64,000 nt of DNA. It comes from Streptomyces kaniharaensis. Lineage in GTDB: Bacteria; Actinomycetota; Actinomycetes; Streptomycetales; Streptomycetaceae. Numbering within the stretch: position 1 is the stretch's first letter; every line of letters begins with the position of its first letter. Shown here in pieces: positions 27,005-53,264 of the stretch. A program made the position numbers and the translations under genes. The stretch is taken from positions 620,001 through 684,000 of the forward strand of contig NZ_WBOF01000001.1 of NCBI RefSeq assembly GCF_009569385.1, read 5' to 3'. The notes below the pieces were generated by a model. That model did not search any database. It was given only the letters and a program-made list of their open reading frames with translations, and was not told where the DNA came from.

Positions 27005-27023
27005 TCAGGTTAGGTTCTCCTCA
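27005..27023 (+). promoter_or_regulatory. Iron-box-like (DmdR/IdeR) sequence
   Basis: TCAGGTTAGGTTCTCCTCA matches 15 of 19 positions of the Streptomyces iron box as I recall it (TTAGGTTAGGCTCACCTAA). There is no iron-uptake gene nearby. Confidence 0.3.
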
Positions 27024-29504: not shown

Positions 29505-29618
29505 GTGCCCCGAAAGATCCGTGTTGCTCCGGTTATCCGTACGAAGACCGAAGAACTAGGGGAACTCCGTCTTGTCAAGCGTGAACATCGGAATCCTGGC
29601 GCATGTCGACGCCGGTAA
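29505..29618 (+). CDS. Putative 37-residue leader peptide of the resistance gene
   Basis: GTG 29505 follows AGGAGAAGG at a suitable distance and opens a 37-codon frame that overlaps the ctcC start by 47 nt in another frame. The peptide is basic and unlike a chance product (PRKIRVAPVIRTKTEELGEL). Its codons are A/T-ending (GTT, GCT, GAA, CTA, CTT), unlike neighbouring genes. Tetracycline ribosomal-protection genes such as tet(M) use leader-peptide attenuation, so ribosome stalling here could control ctcC. This regulatory role is inference. Confidence 0.45.
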   Translation: MPRKIRVAPVIRTKTEELGELRLVKREHRNPGACRRR

Positions 29619-35827: not shown

Positions 35828-35859
35828 ACCCTGCCCGGCCGGCTTCGACTGCGCTTCGA
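35828..35859 (-). promoter_or_regulatory. CtcB (SARP) box and -10 of ctcG-D
   Basis: On the minus strand TCGAAGC-N4-TCGAAGC (perfect 7-mers, 11-bp period) is followed by 8 bp and a -10 CAGGGT. This is the best repeat pair of the cluster. Confidence 0.7.
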
Positions 35860-35881
35860 GCGGGCCCGGCACGCCGCCGGC

Positions 35882-35913
35882 TCCAACGGGATTCGAAACG
35901 GGGGTGGGAGCGT
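35882..35913 (+). promoter_or_regulatory. CtcB (SARP) box and -10 of ctcH-K
   Basis: TCCAACG-N4-TCGAAAC, 8 bp, then -10 GAGCGT; the ctcH start is 43 bp further on. Confidence 0.65.
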
Positions 35914-35955
35914 CGGCGCTGCCCAACCACCCAACTATCCGAGGAGGCCCGGAGC

Positions 35956-36372
35956 ATGACCGGATCGCTCTACGAGGAGGTCCAGCACTTCTACGGGCGG
36001 CAGATGCGCCACCTGGACGAGGGCGAGGTCACCGAGTGGGCCGCGACCTTCACCGAGGACGGCGTGTTCGCCGCCAACGCCCGCCCGCACCCGCAGGAGG
36101 GGCGCGGCGCGATCGAGCAGGGCGCGCGTGAGGCCGCGGAGCGCCTGGCAGCCGCCGGGGTCCAGCACCGGCACTGGCTCGGGATGCTGGAGGTCGACGA
36201 GCAGCCGGACGGCACCGTGCTGGCCAGGACGTACGCCCTGATCGTCGCGACGCCCAAGGGCGGCTCGGCCGCGGTGCATCTGAGCTGCAGCTGCGAGGAC
36301 CGGCTGGTGCGGGTGGCCGGAGAGCTGAAGGTCCGCCACCGCCAGGTGTACCGGGACGACCTGCCCGCCTGA
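35956..36372 (+). CDS. ctcH: SnoaL/NTF2-like protein CtcH (OxyI-type)
   Basis: A 138-residue NTF2-fold protein (SLYEEVQHFYGRQMRHLDEG start) resembling ring-hydroxylating dioxygenase beta subunits and SnoaL-like cyclases. AGGAGG lies close to ATG 35956. Position matches OxyI of the oxytetracycline cluster, whose exact step is not settled; a role in late ring closure or as an oxygenase helper is possible. First gene of ctcH-K. Confidence 0.75.
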   Translation: MTGSLYEEVQHFYGRQMRHLDEGEVTEWAATFTEDGVFAANARPHPQEGRGAIEQGAREAAERLAAAGVQHRHWLGMLEVDEQPDGTVLARTYALIVATPKGGSAAVHLSCSCEDRLVRVAGELKVRHRQVYRDDLPA

Positions 36373-36384
36373 GAGGAGGCCGCC

Positions 36385-37938
36385 GTGGACCTCCCACGGG
36401 ACAGTACGACCTTCGGTCCGCCCCTGGACGGCGTGGCCGAGCTGATCGGCGGGCCCCGGATCGACGACCTGCTCCGGCGCGCCGCCGGGCGGACGCCGCG
36501 TCACCCGGCCCTGGTCGCCGACTGCCTGGTGCTCGACCACGCGGGCCTGGACCAGCGGGTGACCGACTGCGCCGAGGCGCTGCGCGGCGCCTTCGGCGGC
36601 CCCGGCACGGTGATCGCGATCGCCGCCGAGCTGACCGTCGAGTTCGCGGTCACGTTCCTGGGCATCTCGCGCTCCGGGAACACCAGTGCCATGTTCAACC
36701 CGCTCGTCCCGGACGACACCCTGGTGCACGTCCTCAACTCCTGCGGTGCGCGGGCGGCCGTGCTGTCGCCCCGGATGCACCGGCGTATCGCGGCGCTGCG
36801 CCCCCGGCTGCCGCTGCTGCGGCAGCTCGTGGTGACCGCCGACGCCGGTGACGGCACGCCCGTCCTCGGCGAGCTGGAGCGGGCCGCCGTCCCGGCCGGC
36901 GAGGTGGTGGAGACCGCCTGCCTGCAGTTCACCAGCGGCACCACGGGCGCGCCGAAGACGGTGCGGCTGAGCCACCGCAACCTGCTGGTGAACGCGGCGC
37001 AGTCGGCGCACGCCCACCGGCTGGCGGCGGACTCCGTCTCGCTCAACAACCTGCCCTCGTTCCACCTCATGCACCTGAACACCGCGCTCGCCGTCGGTGC
37101 GACGCACGTGCTCTGCCCTGAGGAGGACCGGGAGGCGCTGGTGGGGCTGGCCCGCACCTGGCGGGCCTCGCACCTGTACAGCCTGCCGGTGCGGCTGTCC
37201 CGCCTCGCCGGGGACGAGCGTCTGCCCGGCTTCCGGATCCCGTCGCTGCGCGCGGTGCTGTCCGGGGGCTCGGCGCTGCCGCCCCGGACGACGGTGGCCC
37301 TGTCGGAGCACTTCGGTGTTCCGGTGGTCCAGGGCTACGGCCTCGCCGAGACCTCCCCGTCGACCCACTTCGACCTGCCGGAGGGGCCGACCGTCGGCTC
37401 CAGCGGGCCGCCGGTCGCCGGGACGGCCTGCCGGATCGTCGACGTGCGCACCGGCGCGGTGCTGCCGATCGGCGAGCGCGGCGAGATCCAGGTCCGGGGT
37501 CCGCAGCTGATGCTGGGCTACCTGGGCGACTCGCCCGCCGACGCCGTCGACGCGGACGGCTGGTTCCGCACCGGCGACGTCGGCCGGATCGACGAGGCGG
37601 GCCGGCTGTTCGTCGTCGACCGGATCAAGGACGTCTTCAAGTGCGACAACTGGCTGGTGTCGCCGACCGAGATCGAGCGGGTGCTGATGCGCCATCCGGC
37701 CGTCGCCGACTGCGTGGTCTTCGACCACCCCGACGAGCTGAGCGGTGCCGTCGCCGTCGGGCTCGTCGTGCCGCGCGGCGAGGGCGTCGACCCGGCCGCC
37801 CTGGCCGAGTTCGCCAACGCGCGACTCCCCTACTACGAGCACCTGCGGCAGCTGCGGCTGGTGGAGAGCATTCCGCGCTCCGCCACCGGCAAGGTCCAGC
37901 GGCGCGAGCTGCGCGACCGGCTGTTCGGCTCCCTCTGA
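36385..37938 (+). CDS. ctcI: AMP-dependent acyl-CoA ligase CtcI (OxyH-type)
   Basis: A 517-residue ANL ligase with P-loop FTSGTTGAPKTVRLSH, adenylate motif YGLAETSPSTHF, hinge FRTGDVGRIDEAGRLFVVDR and C-terminal catalytic Lys in PRSATGKVQRRE. The oxytetracycline homologue OxyH was proposed to help supply the malonamate starter, though it is reported as not strictly needed. GTG 36385 follows GAGAGGAGG. Second gene of ctcH-K, 12 bp after ctcH. Confidence 0.86.
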   Translation: MDLPRDSTTFGPPLDGVAELIGGPRIDDLLRRAAGRTPRHPALVADCLVLDHAGLDQRVTDCAEALRGAFGGPGTVIAIAAELTVEFAVTFLGISRSGNTSAMFNPLVPDDTLVHVLNSCGARAAVLSPRMHRRIAALRPRLPLLRQLVVTADAGDGTPVLGELERAAVPAGEVVETACLQFTSGTTGAPKTVRLSHRNLLVNAAQSAHAHRLAADSVSLNNLPSFHLMHLNTALAVGATHVLCPEEDREALVGLARTWRASHLYSLPVRLSRLAGDERLPGFRIPSLRAVLSGGSALPPRTTVALSEHFGVPVVQGYGLAETSPSTHFDLPEGPTVGSSGPPVAGTACRIVDVRTGAVLPIGERGEIQVRGPQLMLGYLGDSPADAVDADGWFRTGDVGRIDEAGRLFVVDRIKDVFKCDNWLVSPTEIERVLMRHPAVADCVVFDHPDELSGAVAVGLVVPRGEGVDPAALAEFANARLPYYEHLRQLRLVESIPRSATGKVQRRELRDRLFGSL

Positions 37939-37974
37939 CCCCGCACCACCCACACCATTTATTGGAGGACAACC

Positions 37975-38265
37975 GTGTTCACCTTCATCAACCGCTTCAC
38001 CGTCACCGGGGACGTCGCCCAGTTCGAGACGCTCGTCGGTGAGATCAGCGACTTCATGAGCACCCAGCCCGGGTTCCGCTCGCACCGGCTGTACCGGTCG
38101 GCCGCGGACGCCTCGGTGTACGTCGAGACCGCCGAGTGGGACGACGCGGCCTCGCACAAGGCGGCGACCGGCTCGCCGGAGTTCCGCTCGCGGGTCGGCA
38201 AGGTGATGGGCCTCGCCCAAGCCGAGCCGGCCCCGTTCGACCTGATCGCGCAGCACGGCGCCTGA
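37975..38265 (+). CDS. ctcJ: Antibiotic biosynthesis monooxygenase-fold protein CtcJ (OxyG-type)
   Basis: A 96-residue ferredoxin-like ABM-domain protein (FTFINRFTVTGDVAQFETLVGE; RSHRLYRS; FDLIAQHGA). Small cofactor-free quinone-forming monooxygenases share this fold. Its position matches OxyG. GTG 37975 has TTGGAGGA upstream. The exact step in tetracycline assembly is not established. Confidence 0.78.
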   Translation: MFTFINRFTVTGDVAQFETLVGEISDFMSTQPGFRSHRLYRSAADASVYVETAEWDDAASHKAATGSPEFRSRVGKVMGLAQAEPAPFDLIAQHGA

Positions 38266-38277
38266 GAGGAGCAGACC

Positions 38278-39315
38278 ATGACGACGAGCGGCGACATCAT
38301 CCCGCAGCCGGTGATCCGGCTGCGCGAGCTCGCACTGAGCGCGGCCGGCGCGGCCGCCGTCCGGGCGGCGGCCCGGCTGGGCCTGGCCGACGCGCTCGGC
38401 GACGAGCCTGCCGGCGCGGCCGAACTGGCCCGGGCCGTGAACGCGGACCCGGACACCCTGCAGCGCCTGCTGCGTGCGCTCACCTGCTACGGCGTGTTCG
38501 CCGAGCAGCCCGACGGCCGGTACGTGCACACCGACGACTCCCGGCTGCTGCGCGAGGACACCCCGCGCAGCCTCAAGGACATGGTGCTCTGGGGCACCGA
38601 GCCGTGGACCTGGGAGCTGTGGGGGCACCTCGACGAGGCGGTGCGCACCGGCAAGGCGGTCTTCCCCGAGCTGCACGGGATGGACTTCTTCGACCACCTG
38701 CACGAGCACTCGCCGGAGTCGGCGGCGGTCTTCGACCGGGCGATGACCCAGTCCAGCCGGCTCTCCGCCCTCGCGCTGGCCGACCGGCTGGACCTGAGCG
38801 GGGTCGGCACGGTGGTGGACATCGCCGGCGGCCAGGGGCACGTCCTGGCCACGCTGCTGGAGCGCAACCCCGGGCTGCGCGGCACCCTGCTGGACCTGCC
38901 GGACGTGGTGGCCGGGGCCGACGCGCGGCTGCAGCCGGGCGGTGCGCTCGCCGACCGCGCGACGCTGCTGGCCGGCGACTGCCGCCGGGAGATCCCGGTC
39001 GCGGCCGATGTCTACCTGCTGAAGAACATCCTGGAGTGGGACGACGAGAGCACCGTCCTGACCCTGCGCAACGTCGTACGGGCGGCCGCGCCCGGCAGCC
39101 GGGTCATCGTGGTCGAGAACCTGGTGGACGGCAGCCCGGAGCTGAAGTTCACCACCGCGATGGACCTGCTGCTGCTGCTCAACGTCGGTGGCCGCAAGCA
39201 CACGCAGGCCGGCCTGGTCTCGCTGGTCGAGGAGGCGGGCCTGACCCGGGCCGAGGTCCGCCCGGTCAACTCCTACCTGCACCTGGTCGAGAGCGTGGTG
39301 CCGGAGCGGAGCTGA
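38278..39315 (+). CDS. ctcK: C6 O/C-methyltransferase-family enzyme CtcK (OxyF-type C-methyltransferase)
   Basis: A 345-residue SAM-dependent methyltransferase of the plant-type O-methyltransferase fold. An N-terminal dimerisation winged helix (about 15-90) precedes a SAM domain with VVDIAGGQGHVLATLL near residue 180. Its orthologue OxyF C-methylates C6 of pretetramid, giving 6-methylpretetramid. Last gene of ctcH-K, 12 bp after ctcJ, followed by two strong hairpins. Confidence 0.88.
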   Translation: MTTSGDIIPQPVIRLRELALSAAGAAAVRAAARLGLADALGDEPAGAAELARAVNADPDTLQRLLRALTCYGVFAEQPDGRYVHTDDSRLLREDTPRSLKDMVLWGTEPWTWELWGHLDEAVRTGKAVFPELHGMDFFDHLHEHSPESAAVFDRAMTQSSRLSALALADRLDLSGVGTVVDIAGGQGHVLATLLERNPGLRGTLLDLPDVVAGADARLQPGGALADRATLLAGDCRREIPVAADVYLLKNILEWDDESTVLTLRNVVRAAAPGSRVIVVENLVDGSPELKFTTAMDLLLLLNVGGRKHTQAGLVSLVEEAGLTRAEVRPVNSYLHLVESVVPERS

Positions 39316-39329
39316 CCGGCCCACGCCCA

Positions 39330-39373
39330 CAACGGCCGCTGCCCCCGGACGAGTCCGGGGGCAGCGGCCGTTG
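39330..39373. terminator. Very strong 21-bp hairpin after ctcK
   Basis: CAACGGCCGCTGCCCCCGGAC pairs in full with its complement across two bases (a 4-6-nt effective loop), 14 bp after the ctcK stop. Confidence 0.88.
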
Positions 39374-39442
39374 GGCGTTCCCGCCCGTTCACCAGAACAC
39401 CGAGCCGGCACAGGCCCCGGGCAGCACAGCACCCGAACAGCA

Positions 39443-39479
39443 CGATGCCCCCGCCGGCACACGGCCGGCGGGGGCATCG
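39443..39479. terminator. Terminator of ctcM-L
   Basis: A 16-bp perfect stem (CGATGCCCCCGCCGGC) and 5-nt loop, 11 bp beyond the ctcL stop on the minus strand. Confidence 0.85.
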
Positions 39480-39490
39480 GGGACAGCGCG

Positions 39491-40582
39491 TCAGTAGCCC
39501 TCGGCGAGCCGCTTCACCGCCTGCTCGACCCGCTCGTCGGTCTCGGTGACGGCCACCCGGACGTGCCGCGCGCCCGCCGCACCGTAGAACTCCCCGGGCG
39601 CCACCAGGATGCCGAGGTCGGCCAGCGCGCCCACGGTCGTCCAGCACGGCTCGTCCCTGGTGGCCCAGAGGAACAGCGCACCCGCCGAGTGCTCGATCCG
39701 GAACCCGGCGTCCACCAGCGCCCTGCGCAGCAGCTCACGCCGCCGCGCGTAGTGCTCGCGCTGCTGCGCCAGGTGGGAGTCGTCGCCGAGCGCGGCCGCC
39801 ATCGCGGCCTGGATCGGGGCGGGCACCATGTGGCCGGCGTGCTTGCGCACCTCCAGCAGCGTCGCGATGACGTCCGGGTCACCGGCGGCGAAGCCCGCCC
39901 GGTAGCCGGCCAGGTTGGAGCGCTTGGACAGCGAGTGCACGGCCAGCACGCCCCGGTGGCTGCCGCCGCTGACCTCGGGGTGCAGCACCGAGCGGGTCTC
40001 GCCCTCCCAGACGTGGTCCAGGTAACACTCGTCGTTCACCACCAGGCTGCCCCGCTCGCGCGCCCACTCGACGATCGCGCGCAGTTCGGCGGTGCCCAGC
40101 ACCCGGCCCTCGGGGTTCGACGGCGAGTTCAGCCAGAGCACCCGGGGGGCGGGGCCGTCGTAGCTCAGCGGCGAGTCCGTCCGGACCAGCGTCGCGCCGG
40201 CCAGGCGGGCGCTCACCTCGTAGGTGGGGAAGGCGAGTTCGGGGACGAGGACGACGTCGCCGGGGCCCAGGCCCAGCATGGTGGGCAGCCAGGCGATCAG
40301 CTCCTTGGTGCCGACGGCCGGGATCACGGCGTCCGGCTCGACGGTCACCCCCTCGCGGCGCAGCAGCCACTGCGCGGCGGCCGCCCGGAGCACGGGCGTG
40401 CCCTCGGTGGACGGGTAGCCGGGCGCGTCGGCGGCGGCGGCGAGGGCCGCGCGGACGGCGGGCGGGGTCGGGTCGACCGGGTCGCCGAGCGCCAGGTTGA
40501 CCAGCCCGTCGGGGTGGGCGGCCGCGCGCTTGCGGTAGGGGAACAGGACGTCCCAGGGGAACTTCGGCAGCCGCTCGATCAT
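39491..40582 (-). CDS. ctcL: PLP-dependent aminotransferase CtcL (OxyQ-type)
   Basis: A 363-residue fold-type I class I/II aminotransferase with the PLP Lys K220 in VHSLSKRSNLAGYR and the cofactor-binding NSPSNPEGRVLG segment. The orthologue OxyQ transaminates 4-keto-anhydrotetracycline at C4. It is related to DapC-like succinyldiaminopimelate aminotransferases. Start overlaps the ctcM stop as ATGA, so the two are coupled. Confidence 0.9.
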   Translation of the reverse strand: MIERLPKFPWDVLFPYRKRAAAHPDGLVNLALGDPVDPTPPAVRAALAAAADAPGYPSTEGTPVLRAAAAQWLLRREGVTVEPDAVIPAVGTKELIAWLPTMLGLGPGDVVLVPELAFPTYEVSARLAGATLVRTDSPLSYDGPAPRVLWLNSPSNPEGRVLGTAELRAIVEWARERGSLVVNDECYLDHVWEGETRSVLHPEVSGGSHRGVLAVHSLSKRSNLAGYRAGFAAGDPDVIATLLEVRKHAGHMVPAPIQAAMAAALGDDSHLAQQREHYARRRELLRRALVDAGFRIEHSAGALFLWATRDEPCWTTVGALADLGILVAPGEFYGAAGARHVRVAVTETDERVEQAVKRLAEGY

Positions 40583-41004
40583 GCCCGCACCCCGTTCCCG
40601 ACGACGTTGCGGGCCAGCGGCGGCGCCTGGCAGTCGGAGTCGATGCCCCAGGAGACGATCCGCTCCGGGGTGATCCGGATCAGCTCGTCGTCGACGTGCG
40701 GCAGGATCTCCTTGCCACCGCTCCGCAGCGCCACCGCGGTGCCCCGGATCTCGATCCCGCGGACGACCCAGCGCTGCGCGTCCACCACGTCGTCCACCAC
40801 CAGCGAGACCCGCGGATGCGTCTGGACGTGGCGGTACTTGAGGCTGCGGGCCATGCCGCGTCCGGTCACGTCGACGGTGCCGAGCTCGGCGTTGTAGTGG
40901 AAGCCCAGGGGCACGACGTGCGGCTGCCCGCGGCCGTCCACGGTGGCCAGACGGGCGAGCGACTGCGAGGCCAGGTAGGCGGCCTCGTTCGCGGTGAATG
41001 GCAT
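40579..41004 (-). CDS. ctcM: F420-dependent dehydrotetracycline reductase CtcM (OxyR-type)
   Basis: A 141-residue PPOX-class split-barrel protein (MPFTANEAAYLASQSLARLA; RVSLVVDDV). OxyR/CtcM enzymes reduce the C5a-C11a bond of dehydrotetracyclines with coenzyme F420 in the last skeleton-forming step. ATG 41004 has GAGGAC upstream and matches the family length; a longer frame to 41580 is not supported. First gene of ctcM-L, with its own SARP-type promoter box. F420 biosynthesis genes are not in the window. Confidence 0.9.
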   Translation of the reverse strand: MPFTANEAAYLASQSLARLATVDGRGQPHVVPLGFHYNAELGTVDVTGRGMARSLKYRHVQTHPRVSLVVDDVVDAQRWVVRGIEIRGTAVALRSGGKEILPHVDDELIRITPERIVSWGIDSDCQAPPLARNVVGNGVRA

Positions 41005-41038
41005 GACTGTCCTCTGTCGGTGGGTCGGGTCCCCGCCG

Positions 41039-41070
41039 ACGCTAGGCACCCCGCTTCGAGCCGCCTTGGT
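41039..41070 (-). promoter_or_regulatory. Predicted CtcB (SARP) box and -10 of ctcM-L
   Basis: On the minus strand ACCAAGG-N4-TCGAAGC, 8 bp, then -10 TAGCGT. I do not recall this operon among the reported CtcB targets. Confidence 0.6.
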
Positions 41071-41097
41071 GCCGGCCGCCCGGGCGGCGACCGCCGC

Positions 41098-41129
41098 TGG
41101 ACTCCGGCTCGAAGTCCGGCTGACAGCGT
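41098..41129 (+). promoter_or_regulatory. CtcB (SARP) box and -10 of ctcN-P
   Basis: TGGACTC-N4-TCGAAGT, 8 bp, then -10 CAGCGT; the leader would be about 25 nt. Confidence 0.6.
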
Positions 41130-41161
41130 GAGCCCGTCGTACCGGACCGAGAGCGGAGGCC

Positions 41162-42637
41162 GTGTTGGACTGCGATGTGGTGGTGGCGGGGGCGGGGCCG
41201 ACCGGCCTGATGCTCGCCTGTGAACTGGCGCTGGGCGGAGCCCGGACGGTGGTGGTCGAGCGCCGCACGGAACCGGAGAAGCACTCCAAGGCCATGGGCA
41301 TGCAGGGCCGCACCGTGGAGCTGCTCGAACTGCGCGGGCTGCTCGACCGCTTCAAGGAGGGCGCGGGCGTGCTCCAGGGCGGCAACTTCGCCAGCCTGGG
41401 CGTGCCGATGCGGTTCGAGGAGTTCGACACCCGCCACCCGTACGTGCTGCTGGTGCCCCAGCTGCGCACCGAGGAGCTGCTCGCCGAGCGGGCCCGCGAG
41501 CTCGGCGTACGGATCGTGCGCGGCGCGGCCGTCACCGGCTTCGCCCAGGACGACGACGGGGTGACCGTCGAGACCGGCACCGGCCCGCTGCGGGCCCGCT
41601 ACCTGGTCGGCTGCGACGGCGGCGGCAGCACCGTCCGCAAGCACGCCGGGATCGGGTTCACCGGCCAGGACCCGCACATGTACGCGCTCATCGGCGACAT
41701 GCGCTTCAGCGGTGAGCTGCCGCGCGGCGAGGGCCTCGGGCCGATGCGCCCGGTGGGCCTGCTCAACCCCGAACGGCGGTCCTGGTTCGGGGCGTTCCAG
41801 CACCAGCCGGGCGTCTACCGGGCGACGGTCGCGTGGTTCGACGAGCCCTTCCCCGACCGCAACGCGCCGGTCACCGAGGAGGAGATGCGCGCCGCGCTGA
41901 TCGAGCACACCGGCGGCGACCACGGGATGCACGACGTCACCTGGCTGTCCCGGCTCACCGACGTCTCCCGGCTGGCCGACTCCTACCGGAACGGCCGGGT
42001 CCTGCTGGCCGGCGACGCGGCGCACATCCACCTGCCGGCCGGCGGCCAGGGCCTCAACCTCGGCTTCCAGGACGCCGTCAACCTCGGCTGGAAGCTCGCC
42101 GCGATGGTCCGCGGCCAGGGCACCGAGGAACTGCTGGACAGCTACGAGAGCGAGCGCCGCCCGGTCGCCGACGGCGTGGTGCGCAACACCCGCACCCAGG
42201 CCGTCCTGATCGACCCGGACCCCCGGTACGACGCGCTGCGCCAGACCTTCCGCGAGCTGATGGCCCTGCCCGACACCAACCGGTACATCGCCGGCATGCT
42301 CTCCGGCTTCGACGTCACCTACGGCACCGGCGACCACCCGCTGGTCGGCCGGCGGATGCCCGACGCCGAACTGCTCACCGCCGACGGCCCGCGGCGGATC
42401 AGCGACTGCTTCGCCGGGGCCCGCGGCCTGCTGCTGCTCCCCGAACCGGCCCCGGCCGCCCCGCCACTGGCCGCCTGGGCGGACCGGGTGGACACCCTGA
42501 CCGCCAAGGGGGCCGGGCCGGAGCCGGCCACCGCCTACCTGATCCGCCCGGACGGCTACGTGGCCTGGGCCGGCGACCCGGCCCGCCACGACGAGCTCCA
42601 CCACGCCGCGGCCACCTGGTTCGGCCCGGCGGCCTGA
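41162..42637 (+). CDS. ctcN: FAD-dependent anhydrotetracycline C6-monooxygenase CtcN (OxyS-type)
   Basis: A 491-residue aromatic hydroxylase with FAD motif VVVAGAGPTGLMLACELAL, DG motif VGCDGGGSTVRK and LLAGDAAHIHLPAGGQGLNLG. It hydroxylates anhydrotetracycline at C6. In oxytetracycline producers OxyS also acts at C5; chlortetracycline lacks a C5 hydroxyl, so CtcN is expected to act at C6 only. GTG 41162 lies very close to GGAGG; TTG 41165 is an equally good start. First gene of ctcN-P. Confidence 0.9.
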   Translation: MLDCDVVVAGAGPTGLMLACELALGGARTVVVERRTEPEKHSKAMGMQGRTVELLELRGLLDRFKEGAGVLQGGNFASLGVPMRFEEFDTRHPYVLLVPQLRTEELLAERARELGVRIVRGAAVTGFAQDDDGVTVETGTGPLRARYLVGCDGGGSTVRKHAGIGFTGQDPHMYALIGDMRFSGELPRGEGLGPMRPVGLLNPERRSWFGAFQHQPGVYRATVAWFDEPFPDRNAPVTEEEMRAALIEHTGGDHGMHDVTWLSRLTDVSRLADSYRNGRVLLAGDAAHIHLPAGGQGLNLGFQDAVNLGWKLAAMVRGQGTEELLDSYESERRPVADGVVRNTRTQAVLIDPDPRYDALRQTFRELMALPDTNRYIAGMLSGFDVTYGTGDHPLVGRRMPDAELLTADGPRRISDCFAGARGLLLLPEPAPAAPPLAAWADRVDTLTAKGAGPEPATAYLIRPDGYVAWAGDPARHDELHHAAATWFGPAA

Positions 42638-42665
42638 CCACCAACTCACTTAGAAGGGACGCACG

Positions 42666-43700: not shown

Positions 43701-43717
43701 ACGGAAGGGAGTTCGAC

Positions 43718-45373: not shown

Positions 45374-45384
45374 CGACGGACACG

Positions 45385-45433
45385 CGGCGAGGGCCGCGTC
45401 CGGGGAGCTGTTCCCCGGACGCGGCCCTCGCCG
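45385..45433. terminator. 22-bp hairpin between ctcP and ctcQ
   Basis: A 22-bp perfect stem starting CGGCGAGGGCCGCG and a 5-nt loop, between convergent stops; it can serve both strands. Confidence 0.9.
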
Positions 45434-45447
45434 TTTCCCGTGCCCGC

Positions 45448-46023
45448 TCAGCCCTCGGCCGCCAGGGTCAGGGCGGCGGTCCTCGGGTCCTCCTCGACGG
45501 GCCAGCGGGTGTAGGAGCGGCGCCAGTACATCAGCGGGCTGGGCACCTCGGGCCGGAGGCCGCCGGCCAGCACGGCGCCGATCACGATGGTGTGGTCGCC
45601 CGCCTCCACGGCCGCGGCGACCCGGCACTCGGCGTGCGCGACCACGTCGGCCGGCATCACCGGCAGCCCACCGGCGCTGCCGGGCTCCCACCGGACGTCC
45701 CGGAATCGGTCGTCCTGCTGCGAGGCGAACCGGGCGGAGGTGGACTCGCCGCCGCCGCGCAGCACGTTGACGGCGAACTCGCCGCGCTCCAGCAGGGCCT
45801 TCAGCACCCGGCTCTCCCGGTTGATGCACACCAGCAGCAGCGGCGGGGTCTTGGAGACGCTGCACGCGGCGGAGCAGGTCATGCCATACGGCTCGCCGTC
45901 CGGTCCCAGGGTGGTCACCACGGTGACCCCGGTGGGCAGTGCGCCCATGATGGACAGGAAGGTCGGGCCGTCCACCAGGCCTGGGGCCAGGTCCAGCGGC
46001 AGGGTCAGGGGTACGGGGGGCAT
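45448..46023 (-). CDS. ctcQ: Flavin reductase CtcQ
   Basis: A 191-residue flavin reductase-like FMN-binding split-barrel protein (FLSIMGALPTGVTVVTTLGPDGEPYGMTCSAACSVSKTPPLLLVCINRES is the diagnostic region, residues about 21-72). It supplies FADH2 to the halogenase CtcP and perhaps to the FAD hydroxylases. Start ATG 46023. Monocistronic, with a SARP-type box upstream; it faces ctcP across a strong bidirectional terminator. Confidence 0.91.
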   Translation of the reverse strand: MPPVPLTLPLDLAPGLVDGPTFLSIMGALPTGVTVVTTLGPDGEPYGMTCSAACSVSKTPPLLLVCINRESRVLKALLERGEFAVNVLRGGGESTSARFASQQDDRFRDVRWEPGSAGGLPVMPADVVAHAECRVAAAVEAGDHTIVIGAVLAGGLRPEVPSPLMYWRRSYTRWPVEEDPRTAALTLAAEG

Positions 46024-46055
46024 CGGTCCTCCACTCTCGGCGGGTCGGTGTCCCC

Positions 46056-46087
46056 ATGCTCGCCGGGCCCCTTCGAGCCGCCGCCGG
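46056..46087 (-). promoter_or_regulatory. CtcB (SARP) box and -10 of ctcQ
   Basis: On the minus strand CCGGCGG-N4-TCGAAGG, 8 bp, then -10 GAGCAT. The 3' heptamer is good and the 5' heptamer weak. Confidence 0.55.
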
Positions 46088-46130
46088 GTCGCCGTCGGGC
46101 GGGGCCGCCGGGCCGAACTGCCATGGAAAT

Positions 46131-46163
46131 CCGCCGAATCGCCGCCGAATCGCCGCCGGAAAA
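46131..46163 (+). repeat. 11-bp tandem repeat, three units, upstream of ctcQ
   Basis: CCGCCGAATCG occurs twice in tandem followed by CCGCCGGAAAA. The 11-bp period equals one helical turn, as in SARP-bound repeats. It lies between ctcQ and the ctcR terminator. Confidence 0.7.
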
Positions 46164-46164
46164 G

Positions 46165-46201
46165 CGCGTACCCCCGGCACGGGGGCGACCGGGGGTACGC
46201 G
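46165..46201. terminator. Terminator of ctcR
   Basis: A 13-bp perfect stem (CGCGTACCCCCGG with its complement) and 11-nt loop, 25 bp beyond the ctcR stop on the minus strand. Confidence 0.75.
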
Positions 46202-46226
46202 GATCAGGGGGTGCGGGTGCGCGCGA

Positions 46227-47762
46227 TCACTCCTCGTCGTGCAGCTCCCGCAGCGGGAAGGTGAGCACGAAGCCCACCGCCAGGATCAGGCCGCCGACCA
46301 GGAACATCGTGCTGAAGCCCGAGGCGAAGGCGTCGACCGCCGAGGCGGTCAGCCGGCCGGTGGAGTCCGGGTCGGAGAGCGCCTGCCGGACGGCCTCGTC
46401 GCCGTCCGCCGCGCCGTCGATCCGGCCGGCGGCGACGCCGAACAGCACCGACATGAACACCGCGGCACCGGTCGTGCCGCCCAGCTGCCGGAACAGGCCG
46501 GAGGCGGCGTTGGCCACGCCCAGCTCGGACTTGGGCGCCGAGCTCTGGATAGCCAGGGTGATGACGGTCTGCGAGAGCCCGATGCCGAGGCCCAGCCACG
46601 CGGCGATCAGCACGATCACCGCCAGCGGGGTGTCCGCGCCGGTGGCGGACAGCGCCAGCAGCGCGCCGGCCATCGAGCCGAGGCCGACGATCGCGGGCTT
46701 CTTGTACCGGTTCCGCTTCTTGATGATCTTCGCACAGACGGTCTGCGAGACGATCGCCCCGGTCATCACCGGGATGATCACCAGCCCGGCGACGGTGGCG
46801 CTGCGGTCCTGCACCAGCTGCAGGAAGAGCGGCAGTGTGGAGACCGTGCCGAAGATGCCCACGCCGATGGTGAAGTTGACGCCGGTGGCCAGGGTGATCC
46901 CGCCGCGCCGGAACAGCCTCAGCGGGACCATCGCCTCCAGCCCGCGGGCCCGCTCGGCCAGCACGAACAGCACCAGGCCGACCAGCGAGACCGCGAACAG
47001 GGCCAGCGAACGCGCCGACCCCCAGCCCCAGTCGAGGCCCTCCTCGGCGACGATCAGCAGCGGCACCAGGCAGACCGCCAGGGTGAGCGCACCCCGGTAG
47101 TCGATCGGGTGGTCCACCCGCTGGTGCGGCAGGTTGAGCGCCTTGCGCACACTGAGCAGGGCCACCAGGCCGAGCGGCACGTTGATCAGGAACGCCCAGC
47201 GCCAGCCGGTCACGCCGAGGATCTCGCCGGCGCCCGCGAACAGGCCGCCGACCAGCGGGCCGAGCACACTGGCCGCGACCCAGGCCATCATCAGGTACGA
47301 GAAGTAGCGGCCGCGTTCGCGCACCGGGGCGAGGTCGGCGATGACGGCCGTGGGCAGTGACATCAGCCCGGCGCCGCCGAAGCCCTGGACGACCCGGGCG
47401 ACGGCCAGCGTCTCCATCGAGTTCGCCAGCGCGCAGGCCGCCGAGCCGACGATGAACACCACGATCGCCGCGAGGTACAGCGGCTTGCGGCCGTAGATGT
47501 CGGACAGCTTGCCGTAAAACGGCATCGCGATCGTGGAGCTGACCAGGTAACCGGTGATCACCCAGGCCTGGACGGTCTGCCCGTGCAGCTGGTCGCCGAT
47601 CGTGCGCAGCGCGGTAGAGACGATGGTCTGGTCGAGCGCGGCGAGCAGCACGGCCAGCAGCAGGCCGGACAGCGCCGTGATGATCTGGCGGTGCGTGAAG
47701 CCGGCGGGGCCGCCGGCCTGGTCGGGGGCGGCCTCGTCGGTCTGCGAGGCGGCGTTTGCCAT
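46227..47762 (-). CDS. ctcR: MFS tetracycline exporter CtcR (DHA2, 14-TMS type)
   Basis: A 511-residue drug:H+ antiporter with about fourteen membrane segments. It has the family motif LDQTIVSTALRTIGDQL in the first helix and motif A-like GKLSDIYGRKP. It matches OtrB/Tcr-type exporters that remove tetracyclines from the producer. ATG 47762 is chosen over a longer frame; GGGAG lies upstream. Divergent from the MarR gene ctcS, whose operators lie in the shared 170-bp gap. Confidence 0.92.
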   Translation of the reverse strand: MANAASQTDEAAPDQAGGPAGFTHRQIITALSGLLLAVLLAALDQTIVSTALRTIGDQLHGQTVQAWVITGYLVSSTIAMPFYGKLSDIYGRKPLYLAAIVVFIVGSAACALANSMETLAVARVVQGFGGAGLMSLPTAVIADLAPVRERGRYFSYLMMAWVAASVLGPLVGGLFAGAGEILGVTGWRWAFLINVPLGLVALLSVRKALNLPHQRVDHPIDYRGALTLAVCLVPLLIVAEEGLDWGWGSARSLALFAVSLVGLVLFVLAERARGLEAMVPLRLFRRGGITLATGVNFTIGVGIFGTVSTLPLFLQLVQDRSATVAGLVIIPVMTGAIVSQTVCAKIIKKRNRYKKPAIVGLGSMAGALLALSATGADTPLAVIVLIAAWLGLGIGLSQTVITLAIQSSAPKSELGVANAASGLFRQLGGTTGAAVFMSVLFGVAAGRIDGAADGDEAVRQALSDPDSTGRLTASAVDAFASGFSTMFLVGGLILAVGFVLTFPLRELHDEE

Positions 47763-47837
47763 TCCTGTTTCTCCCAGAGGTTCCGATCGTCCGGCCGGGG
47801 TCCGGCCGGCGGCGCGCATCCGGCGCGACTCGCCGAA

Positions 47838-47855
47838 TCGACAAGATCTTGTCGA
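47838..47855. promoter_or_regulatory. CtcS operator 1: perfect 18-bp palindrome
   Basis: TCGACAAGATCTTGTCGA, a perfect palindrome with core GACAAG-AT-CTTGTC, lies in the divergent ctcR/ctcS region. The CTTGTC half-site agrees with what I recall of the reported CtcS target. Confidence 0.8.
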
Positions 47856-47884
47856 ATTGAGAGTAGTGGGTGCCGGAGCGGAAT

Positions 47885-47898
47885 GACAAGTTCTTGCC
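47885..47898. promoter_or_regulatory. CtcS operator 2: imperfect copy
   Basis: GACAAGTTCTTGCC keeps one perfect half-site and one with a single change. It lies 35 bp before the ctcS start codon, suited to autorepression. Confidence 0.65.
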
Positions 47899-47932
47899 GA
47901 AACCCCGGACAGGCAGCGGTTAGGCTGCCCGC

Positions 47933-48430
47933 ATGACCGACCTCTCCCCCGCGGCCGAGACATTGAGTGACATCACGACTGAACTCTTCGCCGTCAACGG
48001 TGCCCTGCTGCGCGCGGGCGACGCGCTGTCCGCCCGCTTCGGGCTCACCTCCGCGCGCTGGCAGGTCCTCGGCCTGCTGCACGACGGACCGCAGAGCGCC
48101 GCCCGCCTCGCGCGCGAGCGCGGCCTGCGCCGGCAGGCCGTCCAGCAGACCGTCGTCAAGCTGGTCGAGGAGGGCCTGGTCAGCACCTCTCCCAATCCAG
48201 CCGACCGGCGGGCCCCGCTGGTCGCCCTGACCGCCGAGGGGGCCGACGCCCTCGCCCGGATCGAGCCCGCCGAGCGGCACTGGATGGAGCACCTCGCCGG
48301 CGGTCTGGACCCGGACGACCTGAAGGCCACGCTGCGGCTGCTGCGTGGCCTTCGGTCGGTGCTGGCCGAGGGGCTGCCCCCGTCGGCCACCGGCGGCGCG
48401 GACGCCGCCGGGGTCACAGATCCAGCGTGA
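47933..48430 (+). CDS. ctcS: MarR-family regulator CtcS
   Basis: A 165-residue winged-helix repressor (LSARFGLTSARWQVLGLLHDGPQSAARLARERGLRRQAVQQTVVKLVEEGLV spans the HTH, about residues 37-90). I recall CtcS being reported to repress ctcR and itself and to be released by tetracyclines. Divergent from ctcR with two GACAAG-type palindromes between them. Its 3' end overlaps the convergent ctcT gene by 17 bp. Confidence 0.92.
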   Translation: MTDLSPAAETLSDITTELFAVNGALLRAGDALSARFGLTSARWQVLGLLHDGPQSAARLARERGLRRQAVQQTVVKLVEEGLVSTSPNPADRRAPLVALTAEGADALARIEPAERHWMEHLAGGLDPDDLKATLRLLRGLRSVLAEGLPPSATGGADAAGVTDPA

Positions 48431-50243
48431 CCTCGTACTCGGTGAGCCAGGAGTTGAGCCACAGCACCAGCTCCAGGCTGCCCCGGTCGTAGGGCCGGCT
48501 GACCGCGCCGGTCGCACGGCCGGCCGCGGCCCGCGCCCGGTCGAGGTCCAGCAGCGGCAGCACCGGGGCGTCGGGATCGCCCAGCACCCGCGTGAGTTCG
48601 GCCCGCAGCACACCCTCGTAGCCCGGATCCTGGGTGGCCGGGTACGGGGTCTTCACCCGCTCGACCACCGAGCGCGGCAGCAGGTCGGCCACCGCCGCGC
48701 GCAGCAGGCTCTTCTCTCGGCCGTCGAAACTCTTCATCTCCCACGGCACGTTGAAGACGTACTCGACCAGCCGATGGTCGCAGAACGGCACCCGCACCTC
48801 CAGACCGACCGCCATGCTCATCCGGTCCTTCCGGTCGAGCAGCGTCTGCACGAACCGGGTCAGGTTGAGGTAGCCGATCTCGCGCATCCGCCGGTCGGTG
48901 TCCGACTCGCCCGGCAGCACCGGGACTTCGGCGATCGCCTCGGCGTACCGGGCGGCCCGGTAGCCGACCAGGTCGAGCTTGTCCAGCAGGCCCGGCTGGA
49001 AGAGCGAGCTGCCGCCGAAGTAGCGCGCCGAACCGGAGGTGAGCCACGGGAAGGTGGCGGCGCGCAGTGCCGCCGGGTTGCGGAACCACCGGTAGCCGCC
49101 GAACAGTTCGTCCGCGGCCTCGCCGGACAGCGCCACCGTCACCTGTTCCCGCACCGCGCGGAAGAACAGGTAGAGCGAGGGCCACATGTCGCCCCAGTAC
49201 GCGGGCGGCAGGTCGGTGGCCCGCAGTACGGCGGCGCGCACCGCGGGATCGGTCAGCCCGGGGCTGTCCAGCAGCACCTCCAGGTGGTCCGCGCCCACGT
49301 GCCGGGCGAGCTCGCGCACGTACGGCGCGTCCGCCTCCCGCCGGACGGCGTCGGAGGCGAAGCCGTCGGCCGCACCCCGGAAGTCCACCGAGAACGAGCG
49401 CACCGGACCGCTGAGGGCGGCCAGCGCGGTCACCGCGGAGGAGTCCAGGCCACCGGAGAGCAGCGTGCCGAGCGGCACGTCCGAGACCAGCTGGCGGGTG
49501 ACGGTGTCGGCGAGCAGCTCGCGGACGGTGCCAATGGTCGTCGGCAGGTCGTCGGTGTGCTCCCGGGCCTCCAGCCGCCAGTACGTCTGCCGGCGCACCC
49601 CGCCGCGCCCGACCCGGACCAGCTGGCCCGGGCGGACCTCGGACAGCCCCGTGAAGACGGCCGCCTCCGGCGTCTTCACCATGTCCAGCACCTCGCACAG
49701 GCCCTCCGCGCCGACCCTGCGGGGCAGCATGCGGTCGGCCAGGACGGCCTTCGGCTCCGAGCCGAACCGCACGCCGGCCGCGGTGGGCCAGTAGTAGAGC
49801 GGCTTGACGCCCATGCGGTCGCGGACCAGCAGCAGTTCCTCGGTCTGCTCGTCCCAGACGGCGAAGGCGAACATCCCGTTCAGCCGCTCCACCAGCGCGG
49901 CGCCCCACTGGAGGTAGCCGCGCAGGACCACCTCGGTGTCGCAGGCGGTCCGGAACTGGTGCCCGTGCGTAATGAGTTCGGCGCGCAGCTCGCGGAAGTT
50001 GTAGATCTCCCCGCTGAACGTGATGGCCGCGCCGCGGCCCTGGTGGCGGGCGGTCATCGGCTGCTGCCCGTGCTCCGGGTCGATGACCGACAGCCGCCGG
50101 TGGCCGAGGCCGACCGACGGGCCGAACCAGAGCCCATCGGCGTCCGGCCCCCGGCAGGCCATGGTTTCCGTCATCGCCTGGAGCAGCTCCCGGCGGTGCT
50201 CGGGCGGGGTGTCGTAGTCGACCACCCCCACGACTCCGCACAT
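48414..50243 (-). CDS. ctcT: Amidotransferase CtcT (asparagine synthase-like, OxyD-type)
   Basis: Makes the malonamyl starter that gives tetracyclines their C2 carboxamide. The 609-residue glutamine-dependent enzyme has nucleophile Cys2 (MCGVVGVVDYD) in an N-terminal class II glutaminase domain (to about 195) and an ATP-pyrophosphatase synthase domain with the PP-loop LLSGGLDSSAV near residue 260. Last gene of ctcW-T, 2 bp after the ACP gene. Confidence 0.93.
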   Translation of the reverse strand: MCGVVGVVDYDTPPEHRRELLQAMTETMACRGPDADGLWFGPSVGLGHRRLSVIDPEHGQQPMTARHQGRGAAITFSGEIYNFRELRAELITHGHQFRTACDTEVVLRGYLQWGAALVERLNGMFAFAVWDEQTEELLLVRDRMGVKPLYYWPTAAGVRFGSEPKAVLADRMLPRRVGAEGLCEVLDMVKTPEAAVFTGLSEVRPGQLVRVGRGGVRRQTYWRLEAREHTDDLPTTIGTVRELLADTVTRQLVSDVPLGTLLSGGLDSSAVTALAALSGPVRSFSVDFRGAADGFASDAVRREADAPYVRELARHVGADHLEVLLDSPGLTDPAVRAAVLRATDLPPAYWGDMWPSLYLFFRAVREQVTVALSGEAADELFGGYRWFRNPAALRAATFPWLTSGSARYFGGSSLFQPGLLDKLDLVGYRAARYAEAIAEVPVLPGESDTDRRMREIGYLNLTRFVQTLLDRKDRMSMAVGLEVRVPFCDHRLVEYVFNVPWEMKSFDGREKSLLRAAVADLLPRSVVERVKTPYPATQDPGYEGVLRAELTRVLGDPDAPVLPLLDLDRARAAAGRATGAVSRPYDRGSLELVLWLNSWLTEYEVTLDL

Positions 50244-50245
50244 GA

Positions 50246-50500
50246 TCAGGCGGCCTTGGCGAGACCGAGGTTGACCGCCTCCAGCAGCAGGCGCGGCGTG
50301 GTGGCCTCGACCACGGTCTCGTCCGGGAGCGCGATGCCGCGGTCCCGCTCGATGGTGTTGACGGTGTTGAACAGGGCCAGCGAGTCGTAGCCCAGGTCGG
50401 TGAAGGGCACGTCCAGGATGTCGTCGAGGTCGATGCCCTCGTCGGCGCCGGCGGCCTCCTTCAGCACGGTGATGAGCTCGTCAAGGGTGAACTCTGCCAT
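50246..50500 (-). CDS. ctcU: Acyl carrier protein CtcU (OxyC-type)
   Basis: An 84-residue type II PKS ACP with phosphopantetheine Ser40 in LGYDSLAL and acidic helices. It carries the growing decaketide for the CtcW/CtcV ketosynthase pair. Third gene of ctcW-T. No phosphopantetheinyl transferase gene is in the window. Confidence 0.93.
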   Translation of the reverse strand: MAEFTLDELITVLKEAAGADEGIDLDDILDVPFTDLGYDSLALFNTVNTIERDRGIALPDETVVEATTPRLLLEAVNLGLAKAA

Positions 50501-50544
50501 GGGAATTCCTCACAATCGATGGGGTTGGGTGTCTACAGGGTTGA

Positions 50545-51750
50545 TCAACTGGTCAGCACGAGCGCGCTGTTGAAGCCGCCGTGGCCGCGGGCGAGGACCA
50601 GCGCGGTGGTCAGCCGAGCCGGCCGCGGCCGGTCCCGCACCAGGTCGAGGTCCGGGTGGGCCGGCGTGCCGATGTGGACGGACGGCGGGATCACCGCGTC
50701 GCGCATGGCCAGCAGCGCCGCGGCGACGTCCAGCGGGGCGCCGCCGGCCAGCAGTCGGCCGGTCATCGTCTTGGGGGCCGTCACCGGCACCCCGCGAGGG
50801 CCGAACACCGCGCTCAGCACCCCGGCCTCCGCACGGTCCTGCTCGGCCACCCCGCTGGCGTCGGCGAAGACCACGTCGATGTCAGACGGGCCGAGCCCGG
50901 CGTCCGCGAGCGCCGTCTCGATCGCCCGCCGCAGGCCGGGCGGACGGCCGGAGCCCGGCCGGGGATCGAAGGTGGCCGCGTAGCCGGCGATCCGCCCGTA
51001 GTGGCGGTGCTGCCCGCGCTCGGCCGCCCGCTCCGGGTTCTCCAGGACGAGCAGCGCGCCGCCCTCGCCCGGCACCCCGCCGGAGGCGTCGGCGTCGAAC
51101 GGCAGGAAGGCCCGGTGCGGATCCCGGCGCGGGCTCACCGTGCCACTGCGGGTGAGGCAGAGCCACGACCACGGGCAGAGCGAGCCGTCCACCGCGCCGG
51201 CCAGCATCAGCGCGGTGCCCTCGCGGACGTGCCGGCGCGCCTTGGCCAGCGCGTCCAGGCCGCCCGCCTGTTCGGCCACCAGCGCCGAACCGGGGCCGCG
51301 CATGCCGTGCCGGATCGAGATCTGCCCGGTGTTGACCGGGTAGAACCAGGCGAAGGACTGGTAGGCGCTGACGTAGGCCGGGCCCTTGCTCCACAGCGCC
51401 TGGAGTTCCTTCTGGCCGAACTCGAAGCCGCCCGCCGAGGCCGCCGTGACCACTCCGGCGGAGAAGTCCGGCATCGCCGACGGATCCGCCCCGGCGTCGG
51501 CGAGCGCCTCCTCCGCCGCGACCAGGGCCAGCCGGGTCATGTGGTCGGTCTGCGGCAGCAGCCGGCCCGGCAGGTGGTCCTCCGGCGTGAAGTTCACCTC
51601 CCCGGCCACGTGCGCCCGGTACCCGGCGGAGTCGAAGCGGGTGAGCGGCCCGAGCCCGGAGCGGCCGGCCAGCGTGGCCTCCCAGTACTCCGCCACACCC
51701 CAGCCGTTCGGCGCCACCACGCCGATCCCGGTCACCACCACGTCGGTCAT
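50545..51750 (-). CDS. ctcV: Ketosynthase chain-length factor CtcV (KS-beta, OxyB-type)
   Basis: A 401-residue KS-beta subunit. The active-site Cys is replaced by Q161 in ALVAEQAGG, the classical chain-length-factor signature. With CtcW it fixes the chain at the decaketide length used for tetracyclines. ATG 51750 overlaps the ctcW stop as ATGA, as usual for KS-alpha/beta pairs. Confidence 0.94.
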   Translation of the reverse strand: MTDVVVTGIGVVAPNGWGVAEYWEATLAGRSGLGPLTRFDSAGYRAHVAGEVNFTPEDHLPGRLLPQTDHMTRLALVAAEEALADAGADPSAMPDFSAGVVTAASAGGFEFGQKELQALWSKGPAYVSAYQSFAWFYPVNTGQISIRHGMRGPGSALVAEQAGGLDALAKARRHVREGTALMLAGAVDGSLCPWSWLCLTRSGTVSPRRDPHRAFLPFDADASGGVPGEGGALLVLENPERAAERGQHRHYGRIAGYAATFDPRPGSGRPPGLRRAIETALADAGLGPSDIDVVFADASGVAEQDRAEAGVLSAVFGPRGVPVTAPKTMTGRLLAGGAPLDVAAALLAMRDAVIPPSVHIGTPAHPDLDLVRDRPRPARLTTALVLARGHGGFNSALVLTS

Positions 51751-53027
51751 GCCCTGCTCCACTCCGGCTCGGCGAGCACGATCGCGCTCTGGAAACCGCC
51801 GAAGCCGCTGGCCACGCTGAGCACCGTCGGCACCCGCTGCTCCCGCGCCGTCAACGGCACGTAGTCCAGATCGCACTCGGGATCGGGCACGTGCAGATTG
51901 GCCGTCGGCGGCACCACCGAGTGCTCGATCGCCAGCGCGCTGGCAGCGAACTCCAGCGCGCACACGGCGCCGAGCGAGTGCCCGATCATCGACTTGATCG
52001 AGCTGACCGGCACCCGGTAGGCGTGGTCACCGAGGCTCTTCTTGAACGCGGCCGTCTCGTGCCGGTCGTTCTGCTTGGTCGCCGAGCCGTGCGCGTTGAC
52101 GTAGCCGATGTCCTCGGGGTTCATCCGGCTGCGGTCGAGCGCGACCCGGATCGCCTCCGCCATCTCGTTCCCGTCCACCCGCAGCCCGGTCATGCTGTAG
52201 GAGTTGCAGCGCCCGGCGTAGCCGGTGACCTCGGCGTAGATGTGCGCACCGCGCCGGCGCGCGTGCTCCCGCTCCTCCAGGACGAACATCGCCGCGCCCT
52301 CGCCGAGGGCGAAGCCGTTGCGGGTCAGGTCGAACGGGCGCGAGGCGCTTTCCGGTTCGTCGTTGCGCGGGGTGGTCGCCTTGATCGCGTCGAAGCAGGC
52401 CACCGTGATCGGGGAGATCGCGGCGTCCGAGGCGCCGGCCAGCATCACGTCGGCCGTGTCGTCGAGGATCAGGTCGCAGGCGTGCGCGATCACGTCGATC
52501 CCGGAGGTGCACCCGGTGGAGACCACGCCCACCGGGCCCTCGGCCTCCGCCAGCCAGGCCAGTTCGGTCGCCATGGAGGACGGCACGAAGTAGTCGTAGA
52601 GGTAGGGCACGCCGTGCGCGTCGTCGACCAGGCGCTTGCGGCCCTCGTCACTGACCACGGCGAACTCGCGGTCCAGGCTGATCGTCATCCCGCAGGCCGT
52701 GCCGGCCATCACCCCGGTCCGTACCGGGTCGTTGACCCCCGACACCCCCGAGTCGGCCAGCGCCTCACGGGCCGCGACCACCGCGAACTGCGCGGTGCGG
52801 TCCCACTGCCTGATCTGACGCTGCGTCAGACCACTCGCCTCCGGGTCGAAGTCGCACTCGGCGGCGACCCGGGACCGGAACGGCGCCGGGTCGAAGGTCG
52901 AGATCGTCCGGGTCGCGGTCCGGCCCGCCGTCAGGAGGTCCCAGAACGCCTTGGTGCCCACCTCACCGGGGGCCACCACGCCGATCCCGGTCACCACCAC
53001 GCGCCGCCGTCCGTTGTCAGCTGCCAC
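51747..53027 (-). CDS. ctcW: Ketosynthase alpha CtcW (OxyA-type)
   Basis: A 426-residue KS-alpha with catalytic C173 in VSTGCTSGID and the two His motifs NAHGSATKQND and SMIGHSLGA. It condenses malonyl units onto the malonamyl starter with CtcV and CtcU. GTG 53027 is the likely start, though its ribosome-binding site is weak. First gene of ctcW-T; a SARP-type box lies about 120 bp upstream. Confidence 0.95.
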   Translation of the reverse strand: MAADNGRRRVVVTGIGVVAPGEVGTKAFWDLLTAGRTATRTISTFDPAPFRSRVAAECDFDPEASGLTQRQIRQWDRTAQFAVVAAREALADSGVSGVNDPVRTGVMAGTACGMTISLDREFAVVSDEGRKRLVDDAHGVPYLYDYFVPSSMATELAWLAEAEGPVGVVSTGCTSGIDVIAHACDLILDDTADVMLAGASDAAISPITVACFDAIKATTPRNDEPESASRPFDLTRNGFALGEGAAMFVLEEREHARRRGAHIYAEVTGYAGRCNSYSMTGLRVDGNEMAEAIRVALDRSRMNPEDIGYVNAHGSATKQNDRHETAAFKKSLGDHAYRVPVSSIKSMIGHSLGAVCALEFAASALAIEHSVVPPTANLHVPDPECDLDYVPLTAREQRVPTVLSVASGFGGFQSAIVLAEPEWSRA

Positions 53028-53145
53028 CGCCGCGCCCCCTGTTCGTCTCCCTGCTCGTCTCCGACGACATGCCCGATGCCCTCCTGTCCGGTGCGTCCCG
53101 CCCTGCCCGCACGCTGGGGCGGGTCAGGGACTTGAGCCGGATCAG

Positions 53146-53177
53146 ATCGTCCTGGCAGGCGTTCGCGGCGGCTTCGA
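53146..53177 (-). promoter_or_regulatory. CtcB (SARP) box and -10 of ctcW-T
   Basis: On the minus strand TCGAAGC-N4-GCGAACG, 8 bp, then -10 GACGAT. Confidence 0.62.
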
Positions 53178-53232
53178 GCCGCCGTCCACCCCGCACGACG
53201 GGCACCGCGACCGCCCCCCGCGGGAAGGCGAC

Positions 53233-53264
53233 GCGAACCGGGGTCGAAGCGCACTGCCTAGCGT
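53233..53264 (+). promoter_or_regulatory. Predicted CtcB (SARP) box and -10 of ctcX
   Basis: GCGAACC-N4-TCGAAGC, 8 bp, then -10 TAGCGT. The ctcX ATG is only 9 bp after the -10, implying a nearly leaderless mRNA. I do not recall ctcX among reported CtcB targets. Confidence 0.6.

Follow-up and report, generated by a model that had tools for sequence, protein, structure and literature searches.

The closest described counterpart of the promoters treated here is the OtcR regulon of the oxytetracycline (oxy) cluster of Streptomyces rimosus. In the text passages of PMC4393881, OtcR promoters carry direct repeats with a period of 11 bp, and the 3' repeat lies 8 bp upstream of the -10 element, a rule that is also stated in passages of PMC10936776. 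Mutation of the second repeat of the oxyI promoter (CGGTCGAAG, one of the likenesses to the boxes described below) abolished the action of OtcR, and in E. coli OtcR activated five oxy promoters including that of oxyR, where boxes are likewise present (PMC4393881). The same source gives the oxy consensus as 9-nt repeats, unlike the repeats of the ctc boxes. A second described system is AfsR on the afs box, where the SARP domain meets two direct repeats one helical turn apart over a poor -35, followed by a weak -10 (PMC10936776). We analysed a window of 64,000 nt (the whole stretch of DNA under study, G000:C1:620001-684000) from the 8.77-Mb genome of Streptomyces kaniharaensis, which contains the chlortetracycline (ctc) cluster. 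Its seven structural transcription units are named in a passage of PMC6905112 that draws on Liu et al. 2016. All seven, ctcM-L and ctcX-Y included, are likely bound and co-activated by the regulator CtcB, a small SARP, through one conserved SARP box each.

The seven boxes are 32 bp long and share a single geometry: a 7-mer, 4 bp, a second 7-mer, 8 bp and a -10 hexamer of 6 nt (Table 1). An earlier note, made from the letters of this DNA alone, had described seven boxes with this fixed layout; coordinates and our scan agree with it, and the -10 hexamers match those it listed. Its description of the 3' repeat as close to TCGAAGN holds for six of the seven promoters and fails at ctcW, where TCGAAGC is the 5' repeat and GCGAACG the 3' repeat. 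The ctcW -10, GACGAT, is also far from the proposed nAGCGT. A third repeat, TGGACGG, is found at the ctcW promoter 11 bp further upstream. As in other SARP promoters the direct repeats are one helical turn (11 bp) apart, with a poor 5' repeat at ctcQ; this spacing was fixed in the scan, and all 28 boxes from four genomes match at it with no gaps in the alignment. The 3' repeat is located 8 bp upstream of the predicted -10, and the upstream repeat would overlap the -35 only if that -10 is right.

Scores were ranked across the 127,938 positions that the two strands of the window provide. With a matrix built from the ctcG, ctcH, ctcN, ctcQ and ctcW boxes only, ctcX took rank 6 and ctcM rank 7, directly after the five training sites (scores 21.5–28.2). 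A motif search against shuffled intergenic sequence had been proposed in the earlier note as a check. In 99,999,380 positions of first-order random sequence the ctcX score was reached 14 times and the ctcM score 32 times, which corresponds to 0.018 and 0.041 expected occurrences per window, so that the boxes exceed chance. Repeats at ctcW, ctcN and ctcH were predicted in print in 2015 (PMC4393881); a matrix from these three sites alone placed ctcG 3rd, ctcX 5th, ctcM 6th and ctcQ 8th. Leave-one-out ranks were 4 for ctcG, 5 for both ctcM and ctcX, 6 for ctcH, 7 for ctcN, 8 for ctcQ and 9 for ctcW. With the full matrix the ctcM box was the second best (27.97) and the ctcX box the third best (27.44) in the window. 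In the whole genome the literal pattern TCGAA-N11-AGCGT matched 12 times, compared to 4 for the reversed-pattern control. Four of the 12 are the ctcH, ctcM, ctcN and ctcX boxes, five belong to one repeated sequence on contig C18, and the three found elsewhere score 13.5, 7.7 and 10.7 with the full matrix. Relaxing the -10 to AGCNT gave 29 matches versus 9 in the control, 5 of the 29 being inside the cluster.

Our search of 199 relatives gave three, with CtcT identities of 93, 92 and 87%, that hold a full syntenic chlortetracycline-type cluster with the same gene order; these genomes (G016, G022 and G051 in order of handle) belong to the same genus. Six weaker genomes (G027, G056, G026, G034, G084, G047) were set aside, none having more than four ctc homologues. 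By promoter alignment and scanning together, every one of the seven boxes was recovered in each of the four genomes, and the spacing never changed. Invariant columns amount to 115 of 140 in the box cores, 52 of 84 in the spacers and 245 of 567 in the other intergenic sequence; the difference between core and outside is significant (one-sided Fisher p 1.7e-17), with the qualification that gapped columns were counted as variant, so that invariance outside the boxes is somewhat low and the comparison somewhat favours the boxes. At ctcM, TAGCGT is kept in all four genomes and the 3' repeat is either TCGAAGC or TCGAAGG. At ctcX the 5' repeat GCGAACC is present in all four and TAGCGT in three, and the 3' repeat reads TCGAAGC in the window, TTGAGGG in G022, TCGAAGG in G051 and TTGAGGA in G016; ctcX is the weakest box across species. 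The ctcN -10 is CACGGT in two relatives.

Within 250 bp upstream, all seven structural units have a best score of 20.2–28.9. Ten other starts reached at most 1.3 over the same distance and have no box; they comprise 27113 and 26713 (both around the LuxR-type gene), ctcB, ctcC, ctcR, ctcS, the internal genes ctcT and ctcY, and two flanking genes. The values stayed at or below 1.3 when ctcB was taken to start at 29234 instead of 29300 and when other possible starts of ctcR, ctcS and the LuxR-type gene were used, and the regions 26500-27700, 29200-29600 and 47750-48100 gave a maximum of 3.8 on either strand. The tested resistance and regulatory genes are thus without a box and the structural operons are boxed.

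Table 1. Boxes, first genes, the regulator gene and syntenic clusters. Repeats and -10 hexamers are in capitals, spacers in lower case; positions refer to the window unless a genome is named.
Feature	Position	Strand	Description	Basis or conservation
ctcG-F-E-D box	35828..35859	-	TCGAAGC gcag TCGAAGC cggccggg CAGGGT	17/20 core columns invariant, 4 genomes
ctcH-I-J-K box	35882..35913	+	TCCAACG ggat TCGAAAC gggggtgg GAGCGT	16/20 core columns invariant, 4 genomes
ctcM-L box	41039..41070	-	ACCAAGG cggc TCGAAGC ggggtgcc TAGCGT	17/20 core columns invariant, 4 genomes
ctcN-O-P box	41098..41129	+	TGGACTC cggc TCGAAGT ccggctga CAGCGT	15/20 core columns invariant, 4 genomes
ctcQ box	46056..46087	-	CCGGCGG cggc TCGAAGG ggcccggc GAGCAT	17/20 core columns invariant, 4 genomes
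ctcW-V-U-T box	53146..53177	-	TCGAAGC cgcc GCGAACG cctgccag GACGAT	17/20 core columns invariant, 4 genomes
ctcX-Y box	53233..53264	+	GCGAACC gggg TCGAAGC gcactgcc TAGCGT	16/20 core columns invariant, 4 genomes
ctcB	28425..29234	-	small SARP, OmpR-type DNA-binding domain + BTAD; start MKFNILG; proposed activator	
ctcG	34981..35769	-	short-chain dehydrogenase/ketoreductase type; heads ctcG-D	Pfam adh_short
ctcH	35956..36372	+	SnoaL-like; heads ctcH-K	Pfam SnoaL_4
ctcM	40579..41004	-	PPOX-class F420-dependent reductase, OxyR counterpart	TIGR04023 over cut-off
ctcN	41165..42637	+	FAD monooxygenase	Pfam FAD_binding_3 on open reading frame (ORF) from 41162
ctcQ	45448..46023	-	flavin reductase	Pfam Flavin_Reduct
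ctcW	51747..53027	-	heads ctcW-T; presumably ketosynthase alpha	ORF; 94-97% identical copies in three relatives
ctcX	53273..54517	+	FAD monooxygenase, OxyE homologue	Pfam FAD_binding_3
Syntenic clusters	G016:C1:788000-825000; G022:C108:394000-431000; G051:C65:269000-306000		same gene order, three relatives	L098-L103

Since the same box stands before all seven operons and is kept in four genomes, we predict that a single activator, CtcB, turns on the pathway as a whole. CtcB has the domain order of the SARP family, an OmpR-type DNA-binding domain followed by BTAD. In the longer ORF, which is open up to 29429, Pfam BTAD scored 150.4 bits, over its cut-off, and Trans_reg_C 24.0, just under its cut-off of 26.2; the conserved start was placed at 29234 from the alignment with the relatives. 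The protein aligned to the SARP domain of AfsR (PDB 8hvr) with an E of 5.7e-31. Of six highly conserved DNA-contact residues listed in a passage of PMC10936776 it retains five (W74, P79, T88, R94, K95), Q48 being K. Unlike AfsR, CtcB is a small SARP without NOD and TPR domains, and AfsR R87 and R92, the latter base-contacting, are Q in CtcB, in keeping with a different half-site. The segment TVVTTAQTYIYQLRK does not differ among the four genomes, and the recognition helix is conserved. CtcB (Ctc11) activates the oxy cluster in a foreign host, as a passage of PMC4393881 reports. By analogy with the AfsR structure as described in PMC10936776, a side-by-side pair of CtcB protomers would occupy the two 7-mers, replacing a good -35, and would hold RNA polymerase and the relocated region 4 of the sigma factor HrdB; the polymerase would thereby be able to use the weak -10 located 8 bp downstream.

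The boxes might instead be read by another SARP of this genome, alone or jointly, and 18 matches to the BTAD domain are indeed present. Only CtcB is located within the ctc cluster, however; the closest of the other 17, on the same contig, is some 0.78 Mb distant. Sixteen of the 17 are in frames of at least 655 aa, and the weakest match (E 9.8e-4) is in a 315-aa frame. The literal pattern of the box is also scarce elsewhere in the genome, and we consider a different SARP very improbable.

We infer CtcB binding, activation and start sites at the seven boxes, and a number of observations weigh against so uniform a regulon. The 5' repeat of ctcQ is poor, unlike that of the other boxes, and in the leave-one-out ranking one non-site stood above ctcQ and two above ctcW. 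The ctcX box scores weakly in two relatives, G022 (16.5) and G016 (9.9, -10 TAGCCT), and in distant clusters (see below) none of five ctcM homologues had a box within 400 bp. According to a passage of PMC6905112, deletion of the MarR regulator gene ctcS raised the ctcX transcript and left most operons similar to wild type, so CtcB is not the sole control of ctcX.

Two readings take up these points. If CtcB were limited to five operons (those named as its targets below), the ctcM and ctcX boxes would be relics or accidental look-alikes, and other promoters would be used. The five-operon target list of the earlier note, degradation of the ctcX box in two of four genomes and the response of ctcX, unlike most operons, to the ctcS deletion (PMC6905112) favour such a restriction. 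It is hard to reconcile with the second and third place of the two boxes in the window, with the ctcM -10 kept in all four genomes and its 3' repeat of TCGAAGC or TCGAAGG, or with the ctcX 5' repeat found in all four, its TAGCGT in three and the lack of a clear Shine-Dalgarno sequence in three, and we regard it as unlikely. The other reading places ctcX-Y mainly under direct repression by CtcS, with CtcB secondary, and would account for the raised ctcX-Y transcript in the ctcS mutant (PMC6905112). In the ctcW-ctcX intergenic region, however, the half-site CTTGTC and its complement GACAAG have no exact match, inexact sites not having been searched; of the nine exact matches in the region 24000-58000, the closest lies at 48978. 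A mainly CtcS-controlled ctcX-Y therefore appears quite improbable. Activation of all seven operons by CtcB remains our preferred reading, with a strong call for ctcM and a likely one for ctcX. The earlier note had made CtcB the activator of every structural operon: the ctcM and ctcX boxes pass the blind rank test, occur in four of four genomes and complete the seven units together with the other five, and the claim needs amendment in that ctcX receives at least one further input, involving ctcS.

The position of the ctcX box has a consequence for its transcript. In all four genomes the -10 ends 8 nt ahead of the ATG, so that transcription beginning about 7 nt further on would produce a leader of 0–2 nt, and we predict a nearly leaderless ctcX mRNA. 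The sequence upstream of ctcX pairs with the 16S tail at -1.5 kcal/mol in three of the genomes and at -5.2 kcal/mol in G016, compared to -5.9 to -12.1 kcal/mol for the other six first genes; the three genomes without a clear Shine-Dalgarno sequence at ctcX are as a leaderless start would allow. The text passages of PMC4393881 on the OtcR system make no mention of a near-leaderless start. CtcX shares 65% identity with OxyE (PMC6905112, from a passage). The start of ctcN is most likely TTG 41165 (ATG in G016) rather than GTG 41162: in the alignment with the three relatives the TTG codon is matched by ATG or TTG, and the GTG by GTA or GCG.

CtcB is said to act on ctcG-D, ctcH-K, ctcN-P, ctcW-T and ctcQ. 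The earlier note had counted ctcM-L and ctcX as additions to these. We take oxyR and oxyS to be divergent. They are activated by OtcR and are the counterparts of ctcM and ctcN (PMC4393881), and CtcM carries out the same reduction as OxyR (PMC10949242); given the boxes at oxyR and its activation by OtcR, ctcM-L is less new than had been claimed (both sources as seen in passages). The text list of predicted ctc sites in PMC4393881, figures aside, does not contain ctcG, ctcM, ctcQ or ctcX, and the literature passages found on CtcB and ctc promoters, as distinct from figures and supplements, name no box at ctcM or ctcX. The CtcB regulon of Liu et al. 2016 concerns the same protein and the same cluster as here. 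The boxes are ordinary, conserved SARP promoters and extend a known kind.

For more distant tetracycline-type clusters we used CtcT (asparagine-synthase type) as a query, which gave 80 named loci; nine (L001-L009) were mapped, and L002, L003, L004 and L006 were used further. Of the 33 starts tested, which are the points where tblastn matches begin and not all of which are first genes, 12 have a box scoring at least 10.5 no more than 400 bp away, compared to 3.5% of 2,400 random 400-bp windows from the same loci. The ctcM homologue, boxless in these clusters, may be inside operons. The one ctcX homologue tested had no box of its own. In G225 and G008 the ctcX homologue sits behind ctcT and ctcF, respectively, with 15 and 23 nt between matched ends, so the box that ctcX has for itself seems to go with the separate and divergent placement of the gene in this genus. 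A box of Amycolatopsis orientalis (L006:7533-7564, minus strand), TCGAAGT cctg TCGAAGG cgggttcc TAGCGT, scores 26.9 and is located just upstream of the ORF 6297-7499; the box type thus seems to reach beyond the host family, Streptomycetaceae.

The promoter of ctcB itself carries a different element. At 29318-29357 on the minus strand AAATGC-N5-TGCCACC occurs twice, 22 bp apart, and these two copies are the sole exact matches in the genome, the reversed control giving none. The pair is also found in G022 and G051, one G051 copy having one mismatch, and G016 has a single copy with two mismatches and no pair. At the ctcB homologues of the distant clusters scanned, no copy with up to two mismatches was seen. 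The pair is a candidate activator site and control point for ctcB. Next to ctcB, 27113-28333 on the plus strand encodes a LuxR/NarL-type regulator whose residues ~199-395 match response-regulator models, all of those shown being under their cut-offs; Pfam returned nothing for the ORF from 26713, which overlaps this gene in another frame. That this neighbour reads the 22-bp element is a guess. It is a tentative and rather doubtful idea that the cluster forms a closed two-step switch, in which the unique tandem element would switch on ctcB, perhaps via the LuxR/NarL-type neighbour, and CtcB would act on exactly one box for each of the seven structural operons; resistance and regulatory genes would have none, and the ctcX mRNA would be nearly leaderless.

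If CtcB acts on all seven operons, a single protein would determine how much the complete chlortetracycline assembly line produces, with its last reduction (ctcM) and its ancillary hydroxylation (ctcX) among the steps controlled. This would help to explain why higher expression of ctcB leads to a higher titre, as reported in passages of PMC11508006 and PMC8724576. The boxes separate the structural operons from the tested resistance and regulatory genes, and the set of seven sites in four genomes with its fixed geometry can serve as a guide to SARP targets elsewhere, in other clusters.

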